Origin: Gemmatimonadota bacterium | GTDB lineage: Bacteria > JBHIER01 > G020348925 | Reading direction: 5' to 3' | DNA: 37,557 bases | Assembly: GCA_020348925.1 (NCBI GenBank) | Contig: CP070758.1 | Coordinates: 2,082,817-2,120,373, forward strand | Shown here: one piece after another, positions 3,447 to 35,734 of the stretch | Layout: every line of letters starts with the position of its first letter | Numbering within the stretch: position 1 is the stretch's first letter | Program-made: the position numbers and the translations under genes | The notes under the pieces: model-generated | The model's input: the letters and a program-made list of their open reading frames with translations, nothing else | Told to the model about the DNA's origin: nothing | Databases searched by the model: none

Positions 3447-5381
3447 GTGACGGATGAACAAAAAACAAAGAAGCAACTCGTCGCTGAGCTGAAGCACATG
3501 CAACAGCGGGTTGCGGATTTGGAGGTGTCGGAGGCCAAGTGTAAGCACGCGGAGGAGGTGCTGCGGGTTTCCCATCGCTTTCTCGGGATCGCGAACCGGC
3601 GGATGGAGATGATTCCCCTGCTGCGTGAATTTGTGGCGGAAGTCAAGAACTTCACCGGCTGTACCGCCGTAGGAATCCGCATATTGGAGGACGAAGGGAA
3701 CATACCCTACCAGGTTTTTGAGGGTTTCAGCCGGGAATTCTATGAATTCGAGAGCCCGCTTTCGGTCAATTCGGACGCATGCATGTGTATCAATGTGATC
3801 AAGGGAGATACCGACCCGGAGCGCCCTTTTTTCACCGAGGGTGGCTCCTTCTTCATGAACACCACGACGCGCTTTCTGGCCACGGTTTCGGAGGAGGAGA
3901 AGGGGCAGACCCGCAATGTGTGCAACGAGCACGGCTACGAGTCCGTGACACTCATTCCGATCCGCCTGGCGGACCGCATCCTGGGTTTGATTCACGTGGC
4001 GGATTTCCGGGAGGGGATGGTCCCTCTGGAAAAGGTGGAGGTGCTGGAGACGGCGGCCATGGAGCTGGGTACGGCCATCCAGCGGGTGCGATTGGAGGAC
4101 ATCCTGCAGCGGAGCAAGAGGGAATGGGAAAGAACCTTCGATGCCATGTCCGATTGGGTGTGTCTGATCGATCTCGAGACGCGCAGGATCGTGCGGAGCA
4201 ACCGTGTGGGAGAGCACTTTACAGGCCTCCCCCTGCCGGAGATCATTGGCGGCAACTGCTGTGCTATGGCTCACGCTTCAGAGGAACCGGTCTCGGACTG
4301 TCCGGTGGAAAAGATGCTCAGAACGCACCAGCGGGAATCGGCGGAGATTCAGGGGCCTGACGGCGACCGGTGGCTGATGGTTACGGTGGATCCGCAGACG
4401 GATGAGCAGGGAAATCTCGTCGGTGCTGTCCACATCGTCTCCGACATTACCGAAAGGAAGCGGGCTGAGAAAACACTCAGTGAACAGAAATCACTCCTGG
4501 ACGAGGTCTTCAACGGGATCAATGAGGGGATTGGAATTGTCGATGAGAACGAAACCATTCTCTTCTGCAATCCTGCCTATGCCGACATCTTCGAAGGGAA
4601 CAAGGATGATTTCGTGGGTAAAACTGTGCTCTCGTTCTTCGATGCTGAGGCGTATTCCAAAATTCTCCAAGGGACGCAAGAGAGACGAGCAGGGAAAACC
4701 ACCACGTACGAAATTCCGCTCGTCACCCTCAAGGGCAACCGGAAATTTATTCGTATTACTGCGTCCCCGCGCTACAAGGAGAATGGATCTTACGCCGGTG
4801 CTTTTGGTGCTGTTCTGGATATTACTGACCGGGTGCAGGCGGAGGAAACCATCAGGCAGTTGGCCTATCACGACGATCTGACAGGTCTTCCCAACCGGAT
4901 GCTGTTCGATGATCGCCTGTCCCTGGCCTTGGCCCAGGCCGAGCGCCATCGACAGAAATTTGCTGTCCTGTTGCTTGATCTGGATAATTTCAAGGATATC
5001 AATGATACGCTGGGGCACAGTGTGGGAGATGCATTGCTGCGCGTGATCGGGGATCGGCTGACAGGGCTTCTGCGTAAGAGCGATACTGTCGCCCGACTTG
5101 GAGGAGACGAATTTTTACTCCTGCTGCCTGAGATCGGGTGTATGGAAGACGCGGCGAAGACCGCCCAAAAAATCCTCAAGACCATCCGTGAGCCAATTGA
5201 GCTGGATGGCCGTCATCTCAATATCACCACCAGCGTCGGGATCGCTCTCTTTCCCGACCATGGTGAAGATGGAGACAGCCTCATAAAGAATGCCGATATT
5301 GCCATGTACCGTGCCAAGAATCGAGGTCGGGATACGTTCCAAAGGTACGCGAACGATTTGAAAGTTCGGACGATTGGATGA
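3447..5381 (+). CDS. GAF-PAS-PAS-GGDEF diguanylate cyclase
   Basis: This 644-residue protein is predicted to make cyclic di-GMP from two GTP. It has no membrane segment, so it is a cytoplasmic sensor enzyme. Residues 1-40 form a coiled coil, followed by a GAF domain (about 42-215), two PAS domains (about 225-340 and 350-465) and a GGDEF domain (about 475-635). The active-site motif is intact (GGDEF 552-556). RKSD at 543-546 sits five residues ahead of it, where the inhibitory RxxD I-site is expected, so product feedback is likely. There is no EAL or HD-GYP domain. The start is GTG: the ATG two bases upstream runs directly into a stop, and AAGGA at 3436-3440 is correctly spaced for GTG 3447. 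The ligands of the GAF and PAS domains are unknown. Confidence 0.93.
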   Translation: MTDEQKTKKQLVAELKHMQQRVADLEVSEAKCKHAEEVLRVSHRFLGIANRRMEMIPLLREFVAEVKNFTGCTAVGIRILEDEGNIPYQVFEGFSREFYEFESPLSVNSDACMCINVIKGDTDPERPFFTEGGSFFMNTTTRFLATVSEEEKGQTRNVCNEHGYESVTLIPIRLADRILGLIHVADFREGMVPLEKVEVLETAAMELGTAIQRVRLEDILQRSKREWERTFDAMSDWVCLIDLETRRIVRSNRVGEHFTGLPLPEIIGGNCCAMAHASEEPVSDCPVEKMLRTHQRESAEIQGPDGDRWLMVTVDPQTDEQGNLVGAVHIVSDITERKRAEKTLSEQKSLLDEVFNGINEGIGIVDENETILFCNPAYADIFEGNKDDFVGKTVLSFFDAEAYSKILQGTQERRAGKTTTYEIPLVTLKGNRKFIRITASPRYKENGSYAGAFGAVLDITDRVQAEETIRQLAYHDDLTGLPNRMLFDDRLSLALAQAERHRQKFAVLLLDLDNFKDINDTLGHSVGDALLRVIGDRLTGLLRKSDTVARLGGDEFLLLLPEIGCMEDAAKTAQKILKTIREPIELDGRHLNITTSVGIALFPDHGEDGDSLIKNADIAMYRAKNRGRDTFQRYANDLKVRTIG

Positions 5382-5393
5382 GGGGTATCATCC

Positions 5394-5407
5394 TCGTGAT
5401 ATCACGA
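5394..5407. promoter_or_regulatory. 14-bp perfect palindrome, operator-like
   Basis: TCGTGATATCACGA is a perfect palindrome 12 bases after the cyclase stop codon. It has the size of a dimeric regulator site, but no promoter is recognisable next to it. Confidence 0.25.
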
Positions 5408-5646
5408 CCTGCGCATGAGCGGAACGATCACAGAGACAAAGGAGAGAAAAAGAGCAGCTTCTTCGTGAATCGGTTCTTTTCCAATCTGCTTGAACATCAT
5501 GGCCAAAAGAGTGTGATACTTTTGAAGTTGAAAGAAATCGATTTCGAAGCCTGGGCGCCGTGCCTGGGATTCGGGAATTCGTTGTATCTCCCCAAAGAAA
5601 CTTGACGACGTACCCATAACTATATGGGGCAAAACATGTTTATGAC

Positions 5647-5676
5647 GGCCATCCCACCTTCGTGGGGATGGCCTTT
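5647..5676 (+). terminator. Rho-independent terminator
   Basis: GGCCATCCC (5647-5655) pairs with GGGATGGCC (5665-5673) around a short TTCG-containing loop and is followed by TTTT-C. It lies 265 bases after the cyclase stop. The same GGCCATCC/GGATGGCC stem recurs at 16720-16751. Confidence 0.7.
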
Positions 5677-6043
5677 TCATTGTGCCAGCCAGAGCGATTG
5701 TTCCGAGGTGCCTCAAAGAATCCAGCCCCCGTTTTCTCGTGTCTCTTTTTCGAGGGCGAACATTTTTCCCGCGATCAAGCCGGGTATTGAAAAATGGGTT
5801 GCTGAAAGGATTGAAGCGTGTTATTATTAGAGGGACTGGTTCCAAGTGGGCAGTCTCGACAGGTGGAGGGGCCGCTCAAATGATATTATGGTGGCAATAC
5901 AGAAACGGTTTTTTGAATAACTTCTGTCGAACACGGATCTGTACCGGCTGCTTTTTCGCAGCCTCTTCTGGGATGTTGTTCGATGAATTCCAAGCGTTGC
6001 ATATCTGACGATTCCTCAGGAATCAAAGCCGTGAAAGAAAATC

Positions 6044-8875
6044 ATGGATAGAGAACACCACGCTTCAATGCTTCGTTTTGTGGCTCAGGGGAAAGCCCGT
6101 TTCCTGCTGGGCGTCTCAATCGTCTTGGGATTGTACCTGACGAGCCTTTACAGCTACCTGCTTTTTCACAGTCTCGCTGAAATATTCAGCATCGTCGTGG
6201 CTTGCAGTATTTTTATGGTGTTCTGGAACTCCCGACGTTTATTGAGCAGTGGCTATTTTCTGTTCATTGGTATTGCCTATCTGTTCGTCGGGGGTATGGA
6301 TCTGCTCCATACATTGAGTTACACAGGCATGGGGGTGTTTCCGGGATATGGGACGAATTTACCAACCCAGTTGTGGATCACAGCCCGCTATCTTGAGAGC
6401 CTCTCTTTTCTCATCGCCGTGTTCTTTCTTCGTCACAAACTGAAAACCATTTTCGTGATTCTCGGTTATACTCTGACCGTTTCAGTTCTGCTGATCTCGA
6501 TTTTTTATTGGAAGATTTTTCCCGATTGTTTTGTTGAGGGGCCTGGTTTGACCCCCTTCAAGAAGATCAGCGAATATTGTATCTCTCTCATACTCCTCGT
6601 TTCGATAGGACTGCTGGTTCGGAAAAGGAGGGAGTTCGATAACCATATCTACCGCTTGTTGGTCTCATCGATCGTTCTGACCATTGCTTCGGAGTTGGCC
6701 TTCACGTTTTATGTCCATGCCTACGGCCTGCCCAATCTGATCGGGCACTTCCTCAAGATTGTGTCGTTTTATCTCATTTACAAGGCACTTATTGAGGTTG
6801 GTCTGAGTCAACCGTACCATCTCATGTTCAGAGATTTGAAGCGGAGTGAGGAAAAATATCGCGATCTGGTTGAAAATACGAGCGATGTCATCTATGCCCT
6901 TGATACCGCTGGGGTGTTGACGTACGTCAGTCCTGCAGTGGAATCGTTTATCGGATACAGTTCATTCGAGGTTCAAGGTCACAATATCAAGGAATTCATA
7001 CATGACGAAGATGTACCGATCATCACGGAGGGTCTGCGGACAGTGTTTTCAGGCCAATCTGCGGCCAACGAGTATCGGGTGTTGAGCAAATCCGGCGAAG
7101 TGCGTTGGATGCGCACTTCGAGCAAGCCTGTATTTGTAAAAAATCGTGTCGTGGGATTGAGTGGAGTGCTGACCGATATTACCGAGCGGAAGCTGGCGGA
7201 GGAGGCGCTGCGAGAGTCAGAGCGAGAGTTGGCCATCAGAAACCGGATCGCCTCTGTTTTTCTCACCATCCCAGATGAGGAGATGTACGGAAATGTGTTG
7301 GAGGTAATTGTGGAGGCCATGGAAAGTACATACGGAGTTTTTGGATATATAGATGAGTATGGGTCACTGATTATTCCCTCTATGACCAGAGACATCTGGG
7401 ATCAGTGTCAGGTTCTTGAGAAGACAATTGTATTCCCTCGCGACAAATGGGGTGGCATTTGGGGTCGCGCCCTCACACAGAAGAGAAGCCTGTATGCCAA
7501 TGAAGGCTTGAATGTACCCCAGGGGCATGTTCCCATAGCGAAGGTTCTGGTCGTACCTATTGTGTATGATAAAGAAATAATAGGGCTTTTAGAGGTTGCC
7601 AACAGGGCCAGAGACTACGGCGAAAAGGACAAGGAGTTCCTGGAAGGCATTGCGGGTTATATGGCTCCGGTTCTGAGTGCAAGATTGCAGAGAGATCGCC
7701 AGGAGGGGGAACGTCAGCATGTGGAGGAATCGTTGCGGAAGAGTGAAGAAAGATTGAAGCATTTCGTTGAATCAGCTACCGACAGTATTCTCCTCTTGGA
7801 TTCCCACTTGAACATCGTCGAGGTGAATGAAATCGGATTGAACGAATTTGGCCTGAGTAAAAACGAGATCCTTGGAAAGAATCTCTCAGAGCTTGTGCCC
7901 GACCTTCGGGAGTCAGGCAGATATGACAAGTATATGGAAGTGATGAAAACCGGGGAACCATTCATTAGAGATGATCTTATTCATCATCCTGAATTTGGAG
8001 AGAAACACGTAACCGTAAAAGTGTTTCAAGTGGGTAGTGGTCTTGGAATTATTGCTATGGACATCACCCAAAGAAAGCTCTTGGAGGAAAAGCTCACAAA
8101 AATGGCTCACGATCTGGAGAAGGAGGTTGAAAAGCGAACAAAGGAGCTGCTGAAAACGCAACACCATTTAACGCAATCGCAGAAGTTAGCGGGCCTGGGG
8201 CAATTGGCTGCCGGTGTTTCTCATGAGCTCAGAAATCCTCTGGGTATCATCAATGCATCGTTGTATTTTCTCAAGAGTACTTTTACAATCGAAAATTCTG
8301 CCTTTCACAAGCATATCAAGATCATGGAGGAGGAAGTGGAACGCTCCAGCAAAATAGTTGAAAATCTTCTGGAATTTGCCCGTCGCTCACCCTACGACGT
8401 GCAGGCGATCGATGTCAACGAGCTTCTGGAGAAGACTCTGATTCTGCTGGAGAAGGAGTTGTTGGCCAATGACGTCAGAGTCTCGACGGTCTTTGAGCCG
8501 TTACCCCAGGTGAGTTTACACCTCGATGAGATGAAACAGGTTTTTCTCAATATTTTGCTGAACGCGACGCAGGCAATGCCTGAAGGCGGCGATCTGAAAA
8601 TAAACACGCATGTTGTTCAAGGGGATGAAGGGGATGGGTACGTGAGTATTGTTTTTCAAGATACCGGAATTGGTATTTCCGAGGAGGATCTGACCAATAT
8701 TTTCAATCCGTTCTTTACGACGAAGGAAGGGGGGGTGGGGTTGGGATTGTCGCTCGTGTATGCCACTGTGAAGAGATTTGGGGGGAAAATACACATTGAC
8801 AGTCATAGAGGTGAAGGGACGAAGGTCACCCTGAAGCTCCCGCTGATCCAGGGAAGCTTTTTTTCGAAAACATAG
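6044..8875 (+). CDS. MASE3 membrane sensor histidine kinase (PAS-GAF-PAS-HisKA-HATPase)
   Basis: This 943-residue protein is predicted to sense a signal through its membrane and cytoplasmic domains, autophosphorylate and pass phosphate to the response regulator 56 bases downstream. Residues 15-260 are a multi-span integral membrane sensor of MASE3 type; HTLSYTGMGVFPG between membrane helices is characteristic. PAS (265-384), GAF (393-553) and a second PAS (565-676) follow, then a coiled coil, HisKA (713-783) and HATPase_c (818-938). The phosphorylated residue is His727 in VSHELRNP. The N-box (NILLNATQAMPEGG) and G-boxes (DTGIGI, GVGLGLSL) are intact, so it should be active. The ligand is unknown. 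The ribosome-binding site is weak (GTGAAAG), which leaves the exact start slightly uncertain. Confidence 0.93.
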   Translation: MDREHHASMLRFVAQGKARFLLGVSIVLGLYLTSLYSYLLFHSLAEIFSIVVACSIFMVFWNSRRLLSSGYFLFIGIAYLFVGGMDLLHTLSYTGMGVFPGYGTNLPTQLWITARYLESLSFLIAVFFLRHKLKTIFVILGYTLTVSVLLISIFYWKIFPDCFVEGPGLTPFKKISEYCISLILLVSIGLLVRKRREFDNHIYRLLVSSIVLTIASELAFTFYVHAYGLPNLIGHFLKIVSFYLIYKALIEVGLSQPYHLMFRDLKRSEEKYRDLVENTSDVIYALDTAGVLTYVSPAVESFIGYSSFEVQGHNIKEFIHDEDVPIITEGLRTVFSGQSAANEYRVLSKSGEVRWMRTSSKPVFVKNRVVGLSGVLTDITERKLAEEALRESERELAIRNRIASVFLTIPDEEMYGNVLEVIVEAMESTYGVFGYIDEYGSLIIPSMTRDIWDQCQVLEKTIVFPRDKWGGIWGRALTQKRSLYANEGLNVPQGHVPIAKVLVVPIVYDKEIIGLLEVANRARDYGEKDKEFLEGIAGYMAPVLSARLQRDRQEGERQHVEESLRKSEERLKHFVESATDSILLLDSHLNIVEVNEIGLNEFGLSKNEILGKNLSELVPDLRESGRYDKYMEVMKTGEPFIRDDLIHHPEFGEKHVTVKVFQVGSGLGIIAMDITQRKLLEEKLTKMAHDLEKEVEKRTKELLKTQHHLTQSQKLAGLGQLAAGVSHELRNPLGIINASLYFLKSTFTIENSAFHKHIKIMEEEVERSSKIVENLLEFARRSPYDVQAIDVNELLEKTLILLEKELLANDVRVSTVFEPLPQVSLHLDEMKQVFLNILLNATQAMPEGGDLKINTHVVQGDEGDGYVSIVFQDTGIGISEEDLTNIFNPFFTTKEGGVGLGLSLVYATVKRFGGKIHIDSHRGEGTKVTLKLPLIQGSFFSKT

Positions 8876-8931: not shown

Positions 8932-10299
8932 ATGCGTAACACTTTGAATATACTGCTGGTGGATGACGAGATCAATATGTTGGAGGTGATGAGAGATGTT
9001 CTGGAAGCTGAGGGGCACTGTGTGACAACTGTCAGCAGCGGATATGAGGCTTTGGAAAAGTGTGAGGATGATCCTCCCTTTGATCTGATCATCACCGATT
9101 TGAAGATGCCTCGAATGAACGGCATTGAACTTCTGGAAAAAGTCAGGGAGAAAGGGTCTCCGATTCCGGTTGTGATACTGACTGCACACGGAACAATTGG
9201 GAGCGCTGTGGAGGCGGTCAAGAAGGGAGCGTACGATTACATTCTCAAGCCGTTCAAGCCCGATGAAATATTTGGAATGATCGGGCGGATATTGGAGCGA
9301 AAGAATCTCTTGGACGATAACCTCTATTTTCAAAAGGAACTGAGCAAGGCATACGGGTTCGAGACCATAATTGGCACTTCGTCGGTGATGCAAGATTTGT
9401 TCGAGAACATTGAGAAGGTGGCCAGGACCGATGCTTCGGTGGTTTTAAGGGGTGAGAGTGGCACGGGAAAGGAGTTGCTCGCACATATCATTCACTACGC
9501 CAGCCGTAGGAAAAACAAGCGATTTGTGAAAGTGAGCTGTGCCTCTCTGGCCGAAGGTGTTTTGGAGAGCGAGCTTTTTGGGCATGAGAAGGGAGCTTTT
9601 ACCTCGGCCGTTACTAGCAAACCCGGAAGATTCGAGGTGGCTCACGGCGGCACCCTCTTTCTGGATGAGATCGGTGATATCCCCCTGACGACTCAGATCA
9701 AGCTGCTCCGTGTGCTCCAGACGAAAGAGTTCGAGCGAGTCGGTGGAACGCGGACGATAAAAGTGGACGTGCGATTGATTTCGGCGACCAACCAGGATCT
9801 TGAGGAGAAGAAAAAGCAAGGCACTTTTCGGGAAGATCTGTTCTATCGTCTCCATGTCGTCCCGATCCTTGTCCCTCCCTTGAGGGAGAGATCGGAGGAT
9901 ATTCCGATCCTCTCAGAATACTTTTTAAGACTGTTTTCCGATCAGACGAATAAGCGGATTCGCGGGTTTTCCCAAAAAGCTCTCGAGCTGATGTCGTCAT
10001 ATCCTTGGCCTGGGAATGTCAGAGAGCTCCGAAATTACATCGAACGAGCCACCGTTTTTTGCCAGTCAGATGTCATCAAACCTGAGGATCTTCCGCCTGT
10101 TCTGATGCACCACGGGGATACGGGGAGACTGAGCTTGAGCTTAGAATCAAGATCTCTCTGTGAACTGGAAAAAAAGTTGATACGAACCGTTCTTGAAGAA
10201 GCACAATGGAATTTGACGAAGGCGGCCGGAGCGTTGCAGATCAGCCGGGGGACACTTTACAGTAAGCTTAAGAAATACGGTCTGACTGAGAAGGCATGA
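8932..10299 (+). CDS. NtrC-family sigma54-dependent response regulator
   Basis: This 455-residue enhancer-binding protein is the evident partner of the kinase upstream (56-base gap, probable operon). Receiver domain 5-120 has the acidic pair Asp11/Asp12, phosphoacceptor Asp56 (ITDLKMP), Thr84 and the KPF lysine. The AAA+ domain (about 140-370) has Walker A GESGTGKE (174-181), Walker B LFLDE (242-246) and the sigma54-contacting loop GAFTSA (221-226) where most relatives have GAFTGA. A Fis-type helix-turn-helix lies at 427-451. Once phosphorylated it should remodel RNA polymerase-sigma54. GAGGGGTG at 8920-8927 supports ATG 8932. The likely target is the -24/-12 promoter at 10658. It belongs to the AtoC/ZraR-like group; the true regulon is unknown. 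Confidence 0.95.
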   Translation: MRNTLNILLVDDEINMLEVMRDVLEAEGHCVTTVSSGYEALEKCEDDPPFDLIITDLKMPRMNGIELLEKVREKGSPIPVVILTAHGTIGSAVEAVKKGAYDYILKPFKPDEIFGMIGRILERKNLLDDNLYFQKELSKAYGFETIIGTSSVMQDLFENIEKVARTDASVVLRGESGTGKELLAHIIHYASRRKNKRFVKVSCASLAEGVLESELFGHEKGAFTSAVTSKPGRFEVAHGGTLFLDEIGDIPLTTQIKLLRVLQTKEFERVGGTRTIKVDVRLISATNQDLEEKKKQGTFREDLFYRLHVVPILVPPLRERSEDIPILSEYFLRLFSDQTNKRIRGFSQKALELMSSYPWPGNVRELRNYIERATVFCQSDVIKPEDLPPVLMHHGDTGRLSLSLESRSLCELEKKLIRTVLEEAQWNLTKAAGALQISRGTLYSKLKKYGLTEKA

Positions 10300-10444
10300 T
10301 GGTTTGTGCCAAGAATGTGCGGAGTCCTTTTACCGCTCGCCACGAAAATGCTGCGAGTTTAAGAAGGAGTGGATACTGTGCCACTGAAGCACCGAGATGC
10401 AGAGATCCATGAAAGACAATAATAATATTTAAGACCCAAGTTTT

Positions 10445-10473
10445 ATCGTTCAATCTGTTGGATTTTGAACGAT
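10445..10473. promoter_or_regulatory. Perfect dyad, candidate upstream activator site
   Basis: ATCGTTCAA (10445-10453) and TTGAACGAT (10465-10473) are perfect inverted 9-mers separated by 11 bases, so the half-site centres are two helical turns apart. The dyad lies about 185 bases before the -24 element at 10658, a normal distance for an NtrC-type enhancer. No T-run follows, so a terminator is unlikely. GATTTTGAAC occurs here (10461-10470) and again at 10538-10547. Confidence 0.55.
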
Positions 10474-10657
10474 GCGACGTGACATCTAAGAGTTTGTTCT
10501 GCAACAACACAGAAGAACCATTCAGCTGTTACTGCCCGATTTTGAACAAAGTTTCCCCGCCGGGCCATTCCAAGTTCCTTCCCTAAAAAGTGCTTTGCAT
10601 TTCCAATTTCTTTATTACTAAGATCTTAGAGAACTATGCCGATGACCGCTGGGTTTG

Positions 10658-10673
10658 TGGCATAAGAATTGCA
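10658..10673 (+). promoter_or_regulatory. Sigma54 (-24/-12) promoter
   Basis: TGGCATAAGAATTGCA matches the sigma54 consensus TGGCAC-N5-TTGCA at all but one position. GG and GC are separated by exactly 10 bases, as required. Transcription should begin near 10684, upstream of the small ORF at 10727 and the pseudo-receiver at 10834. It lies directly downstream of an NtrC-type activator gene. Confidence 0.8.
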
Positions 10674-10726
10674 TTTTGGGAAACTCAGGTATCGTGACAA
10701 ATCCCGAAGCGGTTGGTGAGGGGTTT

Positions 10727-10837
10727 ATGAGAAGATGCGTGGGCATGAGGAGAGACATTTTTGAACCACACGGGTGGGAATGCCGATCCGAAGATGTTGG
10801 ACTTGAAATTGAAATGGGCCGACCGATCCGAACATGA
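10727..10837 (+). CDS. Possible 36-aa leader peptide, translationally coupled
   Basis: The ORF starts at ATG 10727, behind a good ribosome-binding site (GAGGGG, about 10717-10722), inside the leader predicted from the sigma54 promoter. Its stop TGA (10835-10837) overlaps the start ATG (10834) of the next gene as ATGA. The downstream start has no Shine-Dalgarno sequence of its own, which favours translational coupling. The peptide is basic at the N-terminus and resembles no family I know. It could be a real small protein or only a device to bring ribosomes to the next start. Confidence 0.4.
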   Translation: MRRCVGMRRDIFEPHGWECRSEDVGLEIEMGRPIRT

Positions 10838-11208
10838 GCAGCAAGCAATTTCATATCCTGGTGGTTGATCAGCATCGAAACAGTTTGGAAGTGTGTACGG
10901 ACCTTCTGAAATCTTGGGGGTACAGAGTGACGCAAGTCTCCATGGAGCATGATGCCATTGCACTTATGAGTGACAGGACGTTCGATCTTGTGATTGCAAA
11001 TCTCCAGATGCCTGAGATGGGAGTGAGACGCATTCTGGAACATGCCAGGGAGAAAGATCCGCCGGTTCCTGTTATCGTATTGGCTGCCTTCGGTTCCGTT
11101 GACAGGGCTGTTGAAGTGATGCGCCAGGGTGCAGCGGATTATGTCAGAAAACCCCTATCGCCAGAGAAGCTGCAATCAAAAATAGAATCGATTTTAAAGG
11201 AGAAATAA
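10834..11208 (+). CDS. Stand-alone pseudo-receiver lacking the phosphoacceptor Asp
   Basis: This 124-residue protein is a single receiver domain without an output domain. The fold is clear (HILVVDQHRN, QMPEM, VRKPLSP) and it resembles the receiver of the sigma54 activator at 8932. The catalytic set is broken. The phosphoacceptor position is Asn56 (VIANLQMP; codon AAT at 10999-11001), the second residue of the acidic pair is Gln13 instead of Asp/Glu, and the switch Thr/Ser is Ala84. Lys106 is kept. Normal phosphorylation is therefore not expected, and a binding or decoy role is inferred. The only visible promoter is the sigma54 site at 10658. No ribosome-binding site precedes the ATG, so coupling to the overlapping small ORF is likely. 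The reading frame is intact, so this is not obviously a decaying gene. Confidence 0.85.
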   Translation: MSSKQFHILVVDQHRNSLEVCTDLLKSWGYRVTQVSMEHDAIALMSDRTFDLVIANLQMPEMGVRRILEHAREKDPPVPVIVLAAFGSVDRAVEVMRQGAADYVRKPLSPEKLQSKIESILKEK

Positions 11209-11477: not shown

Positions 11478-12234
11478 AGAAGTGAAGTAAGAGAACGATC
11501 GTTTCACGGTCCCGGAGAGCTCGTTTTGGCGAAAACGTATGAAACGCAGAACGAACGATACATCGATTACGATGCAGGCGTGACAGAAGAGTGAAGGAGT
11601 TGTTTTGAGATAAATCGTCCCAGTCGATGGCTGTCGATCCATGAATTGGGATCGTACTGTCTCTTGTAAATATTTTTTTAGCGGAGTGAAAACATGGATC
11701 GCCATCGGCTGGGATACAAAAAATGCTTTGATCCTCGTCCAGGACGAGCAAAAGTGCTGGATGCGGAAAAGGGCACACATTCGAAAGCTCACCCAACCTC
11801 AATACGGTGAAGAAAACGGATACGGCAGGCGGAGAGGCGTGAACGCAGGATGTCAGGTGCGTTCGAAGCGATGCTCGATGGAAACACTCAAGTCTAAACG
11901 GTTTCTCTGTAACGGGCGATTTTGCTTTCGGAGCAAGGCGTATGCGATAAGGGGAAGGGAAGGATTTGTCCGCTTCGAGTTCTTTGAAAAAAGAGGCATG
12001 TCGGCCGCCTGCTCACCTCCTGCGCCTGTGAGAAGATCGAACGTCGGGCGATCGCCCTGCTTTCTGTTCTCTCTTGCGCAGTCCGTACGTTTGCGGTCTC
12101 TGTTGCGCGCACTGATTTGTCGCGGAATCGTGAGATGGTATGAGATCCACATCGAGGATGTTTTGAGGGTCGTATCAGTATGAGGCAGTGGGCAAGAGAA
12201 TCTCTTTTTCTCGATTTTTGGGCGTTGGATTTCT

Positions 12235-32104: not shown

Positions 32105-34561
32105 ATGCCGAATGTGAAGAGATCGAAAGAAGTTCCTGTCAGCAAGTTGCGATGGCGATGTGATCCCCGGCGATTCAAATTTAAAACGACGGATCAACTT
32201 GATCCGTGTACCGAAATCTTGGGGCAGGAGAGGGCTCTCAGGGCGGTCAGACTCGGATTGGATATTGAGAGTGAAGGGTATAATGTCTTTGTCACAGGGC
32301 TCGCTGGAACAGGCCGAGATACAACAGTGAAAATGATGCTTGAAGAACTCAAGGAAGGCAAAACACCGAACGATATCTGCTATGTGAACAATTTCAAGAA
32401 TCCGGATATGCCGACAGTACTCTATCTCAAGGCTGGAGAGGGATGCCAGTTCAGGAGTGAGATGGATGATCTTATTCTCACGCTCAGAAAGCAGATTCCG
32501 GTCGCATTTGAAAGCGATGAATTTCAACAGAAAAGACAGGAGATCATCAATTTTCACAGAGAGCGAGAGAAGGAGATTGTGAAAGCCTTTGAGGAAAAGG
32601 TGACGCAGGCCAAATTTGCGCTGGTCCAGCTCCAAGTGGGCCCGTACACAAAACCGGAAGTGATGCCGGTCATTGATGAAAAGCCGGTGGCTCTGGATCA
32701 GTTGGAGGCGTCTGTCGCCTCGGGGGAGTTTTCCGCTGAAGAGTATGAGAAATTGAAAGAGAAGTACGAGCAATTTTCAGCAGAACTTGCCGAAGTGTTC
32801 AAGGAGACGCGGAAGATCGAGAAAGAGACCCGCACGAAATTGGTTGCGTTGGACCGTGAGGTTCTCCTGCCTATTATCAAACGTTACATTGACGATATCC
32901 GTGAAAAATTTCGATACGACAAGGTGGAACAATACTTGGTTGAGGTTCAAGAGAGCATCCTGGGCAACATAGACCTTTTTCGCGGAAAGGAGAAGGAGAA
33001 GGAGCAGGAGCAAAATATTCTCGGAATGATGGCAGCACAGCAGGGAGATCCCTTTTTGGAGTACAAGGTCAATCTTTTGGTGGATAATTGTGACACGAAG
33101 GGCGCTCCCATTGTTTTTGAGACGAATCCGGTGTTCAAAAACATCTTCGGTACCATCGAGCGAGTTTGGGATCGCCTTGGGCAGTGGCGAACCGATTTCA
33201 CAAAGATTAAGGCTGGTTCGTTTCTGAGAGCCAATAACGGGTACCTGGTTCTGAATGCCCTTGACGCTCTTGTCGAACCCGGAGTTTGGCAGGGGTTGAA
33301 ACGTTGTCTGAAGACTCATACCATTGAGATTCAGAGCTTCGATCCGTTTTATATGTTTACGACTTCCGGTATGAAGCCTGAGGCCATAGAGACAAAGGTG
33401 AAGGTGGTTATGATCGGTGATCCGCACCTCTATGAATTGCTTTATTTTCGCGATGAGGATTTTCAGAAAATCTTCAAGGTGAAGGCCGATTTTGATACCG
33501 TCATGGATAATATCGGAAAGACCCCTGTGCAGTATGCGCAATTTATTCGCAAATTGTGTCAGCAGGAGCATCTCAAGCCCTTTGATCGGACCGGTGTTGC
33601 TGAGGTTGTTGAGTATGCGGTCCGCCTGGCCGGCCGGCAAAAGAAGATTTCTGTCAAGTTCACCCAAATCTCAGATTTAATCAGGGAAGCCAGCTATTGG
33701 GCTGAAAAAGAAAGAACGAAAAGTGTGACCGCACAGCATGTCGATAAAGCATTAGAAGAAAAGTACTACCGCGTTCGAAAGATCGAGGATAAGATCCAGG
33801 AAATGATCGATGAAGGAACGATCATGATCGATACGAGGGGGAAGAAGGTGGGACAGGTCAACGGTCTGTCGGTCTACAATCTGGGTGATTACTCTTTTGG
33901 AAAACCTTCTCGGATCACGGCCGAGACGTCGATGGGGCGATCCGGGATTATTAATATTGAGCGCGAGGCAAAATTGAGCGGGAGTACTCACGATAAGGGC
34001 ATGCTCATTCTGGGCGGCTATTTGCGAGGAAAGTATGCCCAGGATAAACCGCTCACCATGAGCGCCAGCATCTGTTTCGAGCAGTCATACAGCGGTGTGG
34101 ATGGTGACAGTGCCTCCTCCACAGAAGTGTATGCTCTGTTATCCAGTCTGTCGGGGCTTCCCCTTCGTCAGGATATTGCAGTCACCGGGTCTGTGAACCA
34201 GAAGGGCGAAGTGCAACCCATCGGTGGTGTCAACCAGAAGATCGAGGGGTTTTTCGATGTCTGCAGGGCGAAAGGACTCACGGGAACTCAAGGGGTCCTC
34301 ATCCCTCATCTCAATATCAACGATCTTATGTTGAGGAAGGACGTCGTTGAAGCGGTGAAGAAGGGGAGGTTTCATATCTATGCTGTGAAGATGATTGACG
34401 AGGGCATTGAGATTCTGACAGGTGTTGAAGCCGGAAAGCGTCGTAAAAATGGAACCTTCAGGCAGGGTACGGTCAACCACTTGGTCGACAAACAGCTCGA
34501 AAAGCTGGCCCAAGGTTTGAAGAAGTTTAAAGAGGAAGAATCGAAGAAAAAGGAGAAATAA
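32105..34561 (+). CDS. Lon-family AAA+ protease (AAA_32/YcbZ-like, S16 peptidase)
   Basis: The 818-residue ATP-dependent protease belongs to the LonB-related group with an AAA_32-type ATPase. The N-terminal AAA part contains a Walker A-like GLAGTGRDT (65-73) in which the usual lysine is Arg71, and a Walker B-like LVLNALDAL. A coiled-coil insertion (about 130-270) divides it. The C-terminal Lon protease domain (about 570-780) has the catalytic dyad Ser669 (DGDSAS) and Lys712 (GGVNQKIEG), 43 residues apart as in classical Lon. No membrane helix is visible, so it is cytoplasmic. It degrades unknown, probably damaged, proteins. GGAGGTGA just before ATG 32105 is an excellent ribosome-binding site. 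trxB follows after 69 bases. Confidence 0.93.
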   Translation: MPNVKRSKEVPVSKLRWRCDPRRFKFKTTDQLDPCTEILGQERALRAVRLGLDIESEGYNVFVTGLAGTGRDTTVKMMLEELKEGKTPNDICYVNNFKNPDMPTVLYLKAGEGCQFRSEMDDLILTLRKQIPVAFESDEFQQKRQEIINFHREREKEIVKAFEEKVTQAKFALVQLQVGPYTKPEVMPVIDEKPVALDQLEASVASGEFSAEEYEKLKEKYEQFSAELAEVFKETRKIEKETRTKLVALDREVLLPIIKRYIDDIREKFRYDKVEQYLVEVQESILGNIDLFRGKEKEKEQEQNILGMMAAQQGDPFLEYKVNLLVDNCDTKGAPIVFETNPVFKNIFGTIERVWDRLGQWRTDFTKIKAGSFLRANNGYLVLNALDALVEPGVWQGLKRCLKTHTIEIQSFDPFYMFTTSGMKPEAIETKVKVVMIGDPHLYELLYFRDEDFQKIFKVKADFDTVMDNIGKTPVQYAQFIRKLCQQEHLKPFDRTGVAEVVEYAVRLAGRQKKISVKFTQISDLIREASYWAEKERTKSVTAQHVDKALEEKYYRVRKIEDKIQEMIDEGTIMIDTRGKKVGQVNGLSVYNLGDYSFGKPSRITAETSMGRSGIINIEREAKLSGSTHDKGMLILGGYLRGKYAQDKPLTMSASICFEQSYSGVDGDSASSTEVYALLSSLSGLPLRQDIAVTGSVNQKGEVQPIGGVNQKIEGFFDVCRAKGLTGTQGVLIPHLNINDLMLRKDVVEAVKKGRFHIYAVKMIDEGIEILTGVEAGKRRKNGTFRQGTVNHLVDKQLEKLAQGLKKFKEEESKKKEK

Positions 34562-35691: not shown

Positions 35692-35734
35692 TATTGAATG
35701 ATCGAGGAATAAGATTTTGAACGAAGAATAATGG

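Follow-up and report, generated by a model that had tools for sequence, protein, structure and literature searches.

A sigma54-preceded, aspartate-less pseudo-receiver gene beside a kinase–NtrC pair: a candidate feedback element

Downstream of the genes for a sensor kinase and its presumed partner, an NtrC-type activator, lies a gene for a single-domain pseudo-receiver that lacks the phosphorylatable aspartate and whose sigma54 promoter is well supported by sequence. There is fair support for regarding it as a duplicate of the adjacent NtrC receiver, or as sharing close ancestry with it. By analogy with FixT and Osp, we propose that this sigma54-driven protein may feed back on its own kinase–activator pair, mainly via the kinase, a tentative reading that we consider possible though short of probable. 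The stronger formulation, a dominant-negative module in which NtrC would use sigma54 to express a copy of its own receiver that cannot be phosphorylated and that titrates the kinase or NtrC itself, seems doubtful to us. Positions refer to the window, that is the whole 37,557-nt stretch of DNA that was analysed (table 1), and comparisons within the genome use 30 receivers, namely the pseudo-receiver and 29 others.

Table 1. Features of the locus and of the loci compared with it, with the basis of each assignment.
Feature	Position	Strand	Basis
GGDEF protein gene just upstream of kinase gene	3447-5381		profile search
MASE3-PAS-GAF-PAS-HisKA-HATPase sensor kinase, H/N/G boxes intact, presumed NtrC partner	6044-8875	+	profiles, motifs; adjacent pair in f52
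NtrC-type sigma54 activator with a canonical receiver, an AAA+ domain (GAFTSA loop) and a Fis-type HTH	8932-10299	+	profiles, alignment
Upstream region with second genomic copy at G000:C1:2677457-2677570	10440-10553	.	73% identity
Perfect 9-bp dyad ATCGTTCAA-N11-TTGAACGAT, candidate enhancer, about 210 bp upstream of promoter	10445-10473	.	inverted repeat
Second half-site GATTTTGAACAAA, 77 bp from first	10538-10550	+	sequence
-24/-12 (sigma54) promoter TGGCATAAGAATTGCA; transcription start expected near 10684	10658-10673	+	pattern match
Possible 36-aa leader ORF, stop overlapping pseudo-receiver start (ATGA), GGTGAGG just upstream	10727-10837	+	sequence
Single-domain pseudo-receiver, aspartate-less (D12 Q13 N56 A84 K106), 124 aa	10834-11208	+	ORF, profile, alignment, fold, codons
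f52 GGDEF pseudo-receiver protein	L040 frame 4939-7743	reverse	
f52 GGDEF pseudo-receiver protein	L041:8187-10895		

The initial annotation described an intact frame coding for a receiver with Asn56, Gln13 and Ala84 and a retained Lys106, and the codons and the 30-receiver alignment agree with it on each point. The frame is complete from its ATG start, and residues 8-117 of its product match PF00072 at 3.9e-22 in a profile search. This match and a predicted (beta-alpha)5 fold make it a receiver domain, and one that ends after alpha5 without an output domain, as in single-domain response regulators. D12 (GAT), Q13 (CAG), N56 (AAT), A84 (GCT), Y103 (TAT) and K106 (AAA) align with positions DD1, DD2, D, T, K-3 and K of the other 29 receivers. 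That is, three of the five catalytic residues are gone (Gln13, Asn56 and Ala84), and Asp12 and Lys106 are retained. Pseudo-receivers are those missing one or more of DD, D, T and K, with an aspartate-less subset lacking D (PMC12632262); with Gln at DD2, Asn at D and Ala at T, the protein falls in this subset. A sequencing error was rejected as the cause of the altered residues, given the several independent codon changes. In addition, position D+8 is Val (Gly in nearly all the other aligned receivers), and K-3 and K+2 are Tyr and Leu. Such a three-fold catalytic loss is unusual in the genome, since all five positions are intact in 27 of the 30 receivers and the two remaining deviants, L063 and L049, have lost one and two of them, respectively. 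L063 is an NtrC-length frame with Gln at DD2, and the L049 receiver has Asn at both DD2 and D.

The likeness to the receiver encoded just upstream, also put forward by the initial annotation, was recovered both by search and by phylogeny. No paralogue in the genome is closer than the receiver of the adjacent NtrC, at 42% identity and 90 bits (next best, 80 bits), and the two are sisters at 96/87 in the tree of 30 receivers, where the pseudo-receiver has a branch length of 1.57 against 0.58. With NtrC orthologues from a distant family (f52) added, sister support is 63/67, inside a clade with such NtrCs at 93/89. As the pair still joins with outside NtrCs within this clade, descent from the lineage of the adjacent NtrC is likely on sequence grounds; a straight tandem duplication is the probable, not proven, origin.

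The frame also looks like a real gene. A chance ORF was rejected as an explanation, as was a piece of a longer frameshifted gene, there being no output domain nearby. Its codon score is the best of the six frames but is 0.05, compared with about 0.16-0.24 in the neighbouring genes, and its GC content by codon position (0.58/0.35/0.52) is similar to that of the NtrC and kinase genes. AlphaFold2, run on a shallow alignment of eight sequences, predicts five strands and five helices in a complete (beta-alpha)5 arrangement (pLDDT 88, pTM 0.85), and the PDB neighbours of the model are ordinary receiver domains, with LuxO-type proteins and FleR among the first. The complete predicted fold and the gene-like codon pattern thus make the pseudo-receiver look unlike debris. 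No Shine-Dalgarno was found ahead of its start codon; speculatively, translational coupling through the possible leader ORF could account for this absence. Downstream, ORF 11641-12183 was rejected as a co-transcribed gene because its composition is not gene-like. A recent duplicate that is decaying or weakly constrained, with no present function, would fit the long branch, the low codon score, the missing Shine-Dalgarno and the fact that our searches found no orthologue. Against it, the frame is intact, the core positions are kept and the predicted fold is complete at 42% identity to the nearest paralogue, and a strict sigma54 site and a dyad lie upstream; overall we regard decay as quite unlikely.

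The 534-bp gap between the NtrC and pseudo-receiver genes contains the promoter, which has the -24 GG and -12 GC of a sigma54 site and is the only exact match to TGGCAY-N5-TTGCW in the window (0.05 expected; one is reached in 5 of 100 shuffles). Across the genome there are 20 such matches, compared with 5 for the reversed control, and most are intergenic with an ORF starting downstream. The initial annotation called this the only visible promoter, a claim that stands in part. It is the sole strict sigma54 match, and a sigma70 consensus scan of the + strand upstream of the pseudo-receiver found no site, but the promoter types of this lineage may fall outside that consensus. Read-through from the NtrC gene is also possible, because no terminator-like site was found between the two genes. 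In line with the proposed circuit, the genome has two further sigma54 sites placed immediately after an NtrC-type gene. Sites at L078 (G000:C1:1401151) and L087 (G000:C1:3795521) lie just ahead of canonical receiver genes, and the one at L078 comes immediately after an NtrC-type gene as well. Elsewhere in the window, a third GATTTTGAAC occurs at 35713-35722, about 12 bp before the start of an aldehyde dehydrogenase gene; none of 100 shuffles reaches three.

As for the dyad upstream of the promoter, 5 of 300 shuffles of its region produced a perfect inverted repeat of that length. The region has one other copy of significant score in the genome (114 bp, 73% identical, E 8.8e-12), so a large repeat family was rejected. 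In that copy the dyad and spacer are kept at 17 and 16 of 19 positions and the second half-site at 17 of 19, compared with 10-12 of 19 in the middle. Such conservation in blocks at two loci would be expected of a bound site, which makes this a candidate binding region. The second copy (L093, L097) ends at an assembly gap, with the downstream gene out of view. At the other strict sigma54 sites of the genome the dyad is absent (best, 13 of 18 positions). L072 and L076 share a different dyad, AAGTGRGTC, near -170 of their sigma54 sites, likely the enhancer of another activator. These differences between sites fit one activator per dyad, and we infer that the dyad may serve as an enhancer and that the neighbouring NtrC would be its owner. 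Weak half-site matches at L100, L101 and L104 were set aside: the stretches inspected around them show no sigma54-like site, and the L104 match is within a coding frame.

Relatives of the pseudo-receiver were sought in a GTDB contig scan, in plasmids and, directly, in about 180 genomes: 59 diverse genomes, the phylum of G321 (82 genomes) and the phylum of G073 (40 genomes). The two phyla were picked by the likeness of a marker protein; in the collection searched, the class and phylum of the present genome are represented by this genome alone. Its 16S gene is present as a fragment ahead of an assembly gap and gave no placement of the organism. No orthologue was found in this set, and there is thus nothing to show that selection maintains the arrangement. 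The top matches inspected in the diverse genomes and in the G321 phylum all have the canonical residues at the five catalytic positions, with a normal Asp. NtrC itself was sought in 386 genomes. In f52, kinase and NtrC are adjacent (37-39% identity over the C-terminal 390 aa of the kinase, 52-56% for NtrC) and the pseudo-receiver is absent, which counts against the feedback model. In two f52 genomes NtrC is followed directly by a gene for a GGDEF protein with a receiver that lacks the acidic pair and retains Asp, Thr and Lys; the tree neither joins this receiver with the pseudo-receiver nor excludes the grouping.

How might such a protein act? The sigma54 promoter with its upstream dyad would transcribe the gene, most likely driven by the adjacent NtrC, and the pseudo-receiver could then occupy the receiver-docking site of the kinase through its alpha1 face, the most likely route. 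Once docked, it would damp phosphorylation of the activator, in the way that Osp and FixT restrain their own kinases. It might hold one conformation without phosphate, given the lost metal and phosphate sites and Leu at K+2, a residue counted with those that bias CheY towards active conformations (PMC12632262). The choice of kinase partner resides largely in helix alpha1 and the beta5-alpha5 loop of the receiver (PMC2991266). NtrC ranks first of the 29 paralogues in likeness to the pseudo-receiver at alpha1 and at strand beta3. At four alpha1 specificity positions, which are those altered in the rewired RR468 structures, the pseudo-receiver reads NSVL and NtrC reads NMVV (two identities and one conservative change). 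This agreement is weak, because among all pairings of the genome's receivers 11% reach at least as many identities. Having two of four identities only, together with the closer match of L063 (ESVL) and the sister support of 63/67, counts against the feedback model. The activator carries GAFTSA in place of GAFTGA in its sigma54-contact loop (GAFTHA in the f52 orthologues). NorR with serine at that loop position works and is partly active without signal (PMC2941729), so that, as a suggestion only, an activator of this kind may need extra restraint.

The pseudo-receiver might instead act on the activator, by pairing with the NtrC receiver in mixed dimers via alpha4-beta5-alpha5 and altering assembly of the AAA+ ring. 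Its kinship to that receiver, the retained Tyr103 at K-3 and Lys106, and the WhiI/BldM heterodimers and general heterodimer model (PMC12632262) all speak for such dimers. For a chosen set of alpha4-beta5-alpha5 positions, NtrC is 4th of 29 in likeness; taken singly, however, alpha4, beta5 and alpha5 place it at 10-11 of 29, no closer than many paralogues, and the switch Thr is gone. We therefore think mixed dimers improbable. The likeness at alpha1 and at the specificity positions favours kinase docking only mildly over them.

As another alternative, the two-component system could simply turn on synthesis of the pseudo-receiver as a constitutively active output that acts on an unrelated target or binds a ligand. 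A 2025 review offers this model for CmrT and describes FrzS, which works through a different surface (PMC12632262); the ShkA pseudo-receiver is reported to bind c-di-GMP (PMC7010744), and a GGDEF protein is encoded just upstream of the kinase gene. The closest kin of the pseudo-receiver is its neighbour's receiver, however, with alpha1 well kept, and this points back to the same system; a constitutive output strikes us as rather unlikely.

Aspartate-less pseudo-receivers are a known kind, and feedback of the proposed sort has published precedents in Osp and FixT. The Osp protein of Rhodobacter (Cereibacter) sphaeroides is likewise a single-domain pseudo-receiver; it is activated by CtrA, its own regulator, and blocks autophosphorylation of the kinase CckA, both demonstrated (PMC9430884). 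It has lost the acidic pair and the Lys and keeps the Asp, the residue lost here; it belongs to an alphaproteobacterial CckA phosphorelay under CtrA control, and the source does not present it as copied from its partner's receiver. In Caulobacter and Sinorhizobium, FixT is a single receiver domain that is induced by its own two-component system and inhibits autophosphorylation of the kinase FixL (PMC7078487); Caulobacter FixT differs in having a four-Cys Fe-S site and turnover by Lon, and is not part of an NtrC/sigma54 system. CmrRST of Clostridioides difficile also encodes a kinase, a normal regulator and a pseudo-receiver together, with the locus activated by its regulator (PMC12632262), although CmrT is an OmpR-family regulator and not a lone receiver, and the three genes form one operon. 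Finally, in the NtrC-like NmpRSTU system of Myxococcus xanthus, the NtrC-like regulator itself drives the operon of NmpT, a protein made up of receivers alone; NmpT contains two of them and is proposed to serve as a phosphate sink, a role opposite to that of a receiver that cannot be phosphorylated (PMC11841059).

The general feedback idea has been discussed for CmrT, in a review that calls the on/off switching of bacterial pseudo-receivers a mystery (PMC12632262). In the literature searched, we found no description of dominant-negative feedback by receiver duplication in sigma54 systems, and a copy of the activator's own receiver expressed from a sigma54 promoter would, if shown, be a new arrangement. 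If the model is true, a two-component system makes its own brake by duplicating its receiver and killing the active site of the copy. The circuit is a plausible and precedented proposal for experiment and, with the presumed kinase, activator, promoter and pseudo-receiver all within about 5 kb, is open to bench work. The same window also holds a LonB-like protease gene (32105-34561), whose link to the Lon turnover of FixT is probably a coincidence.
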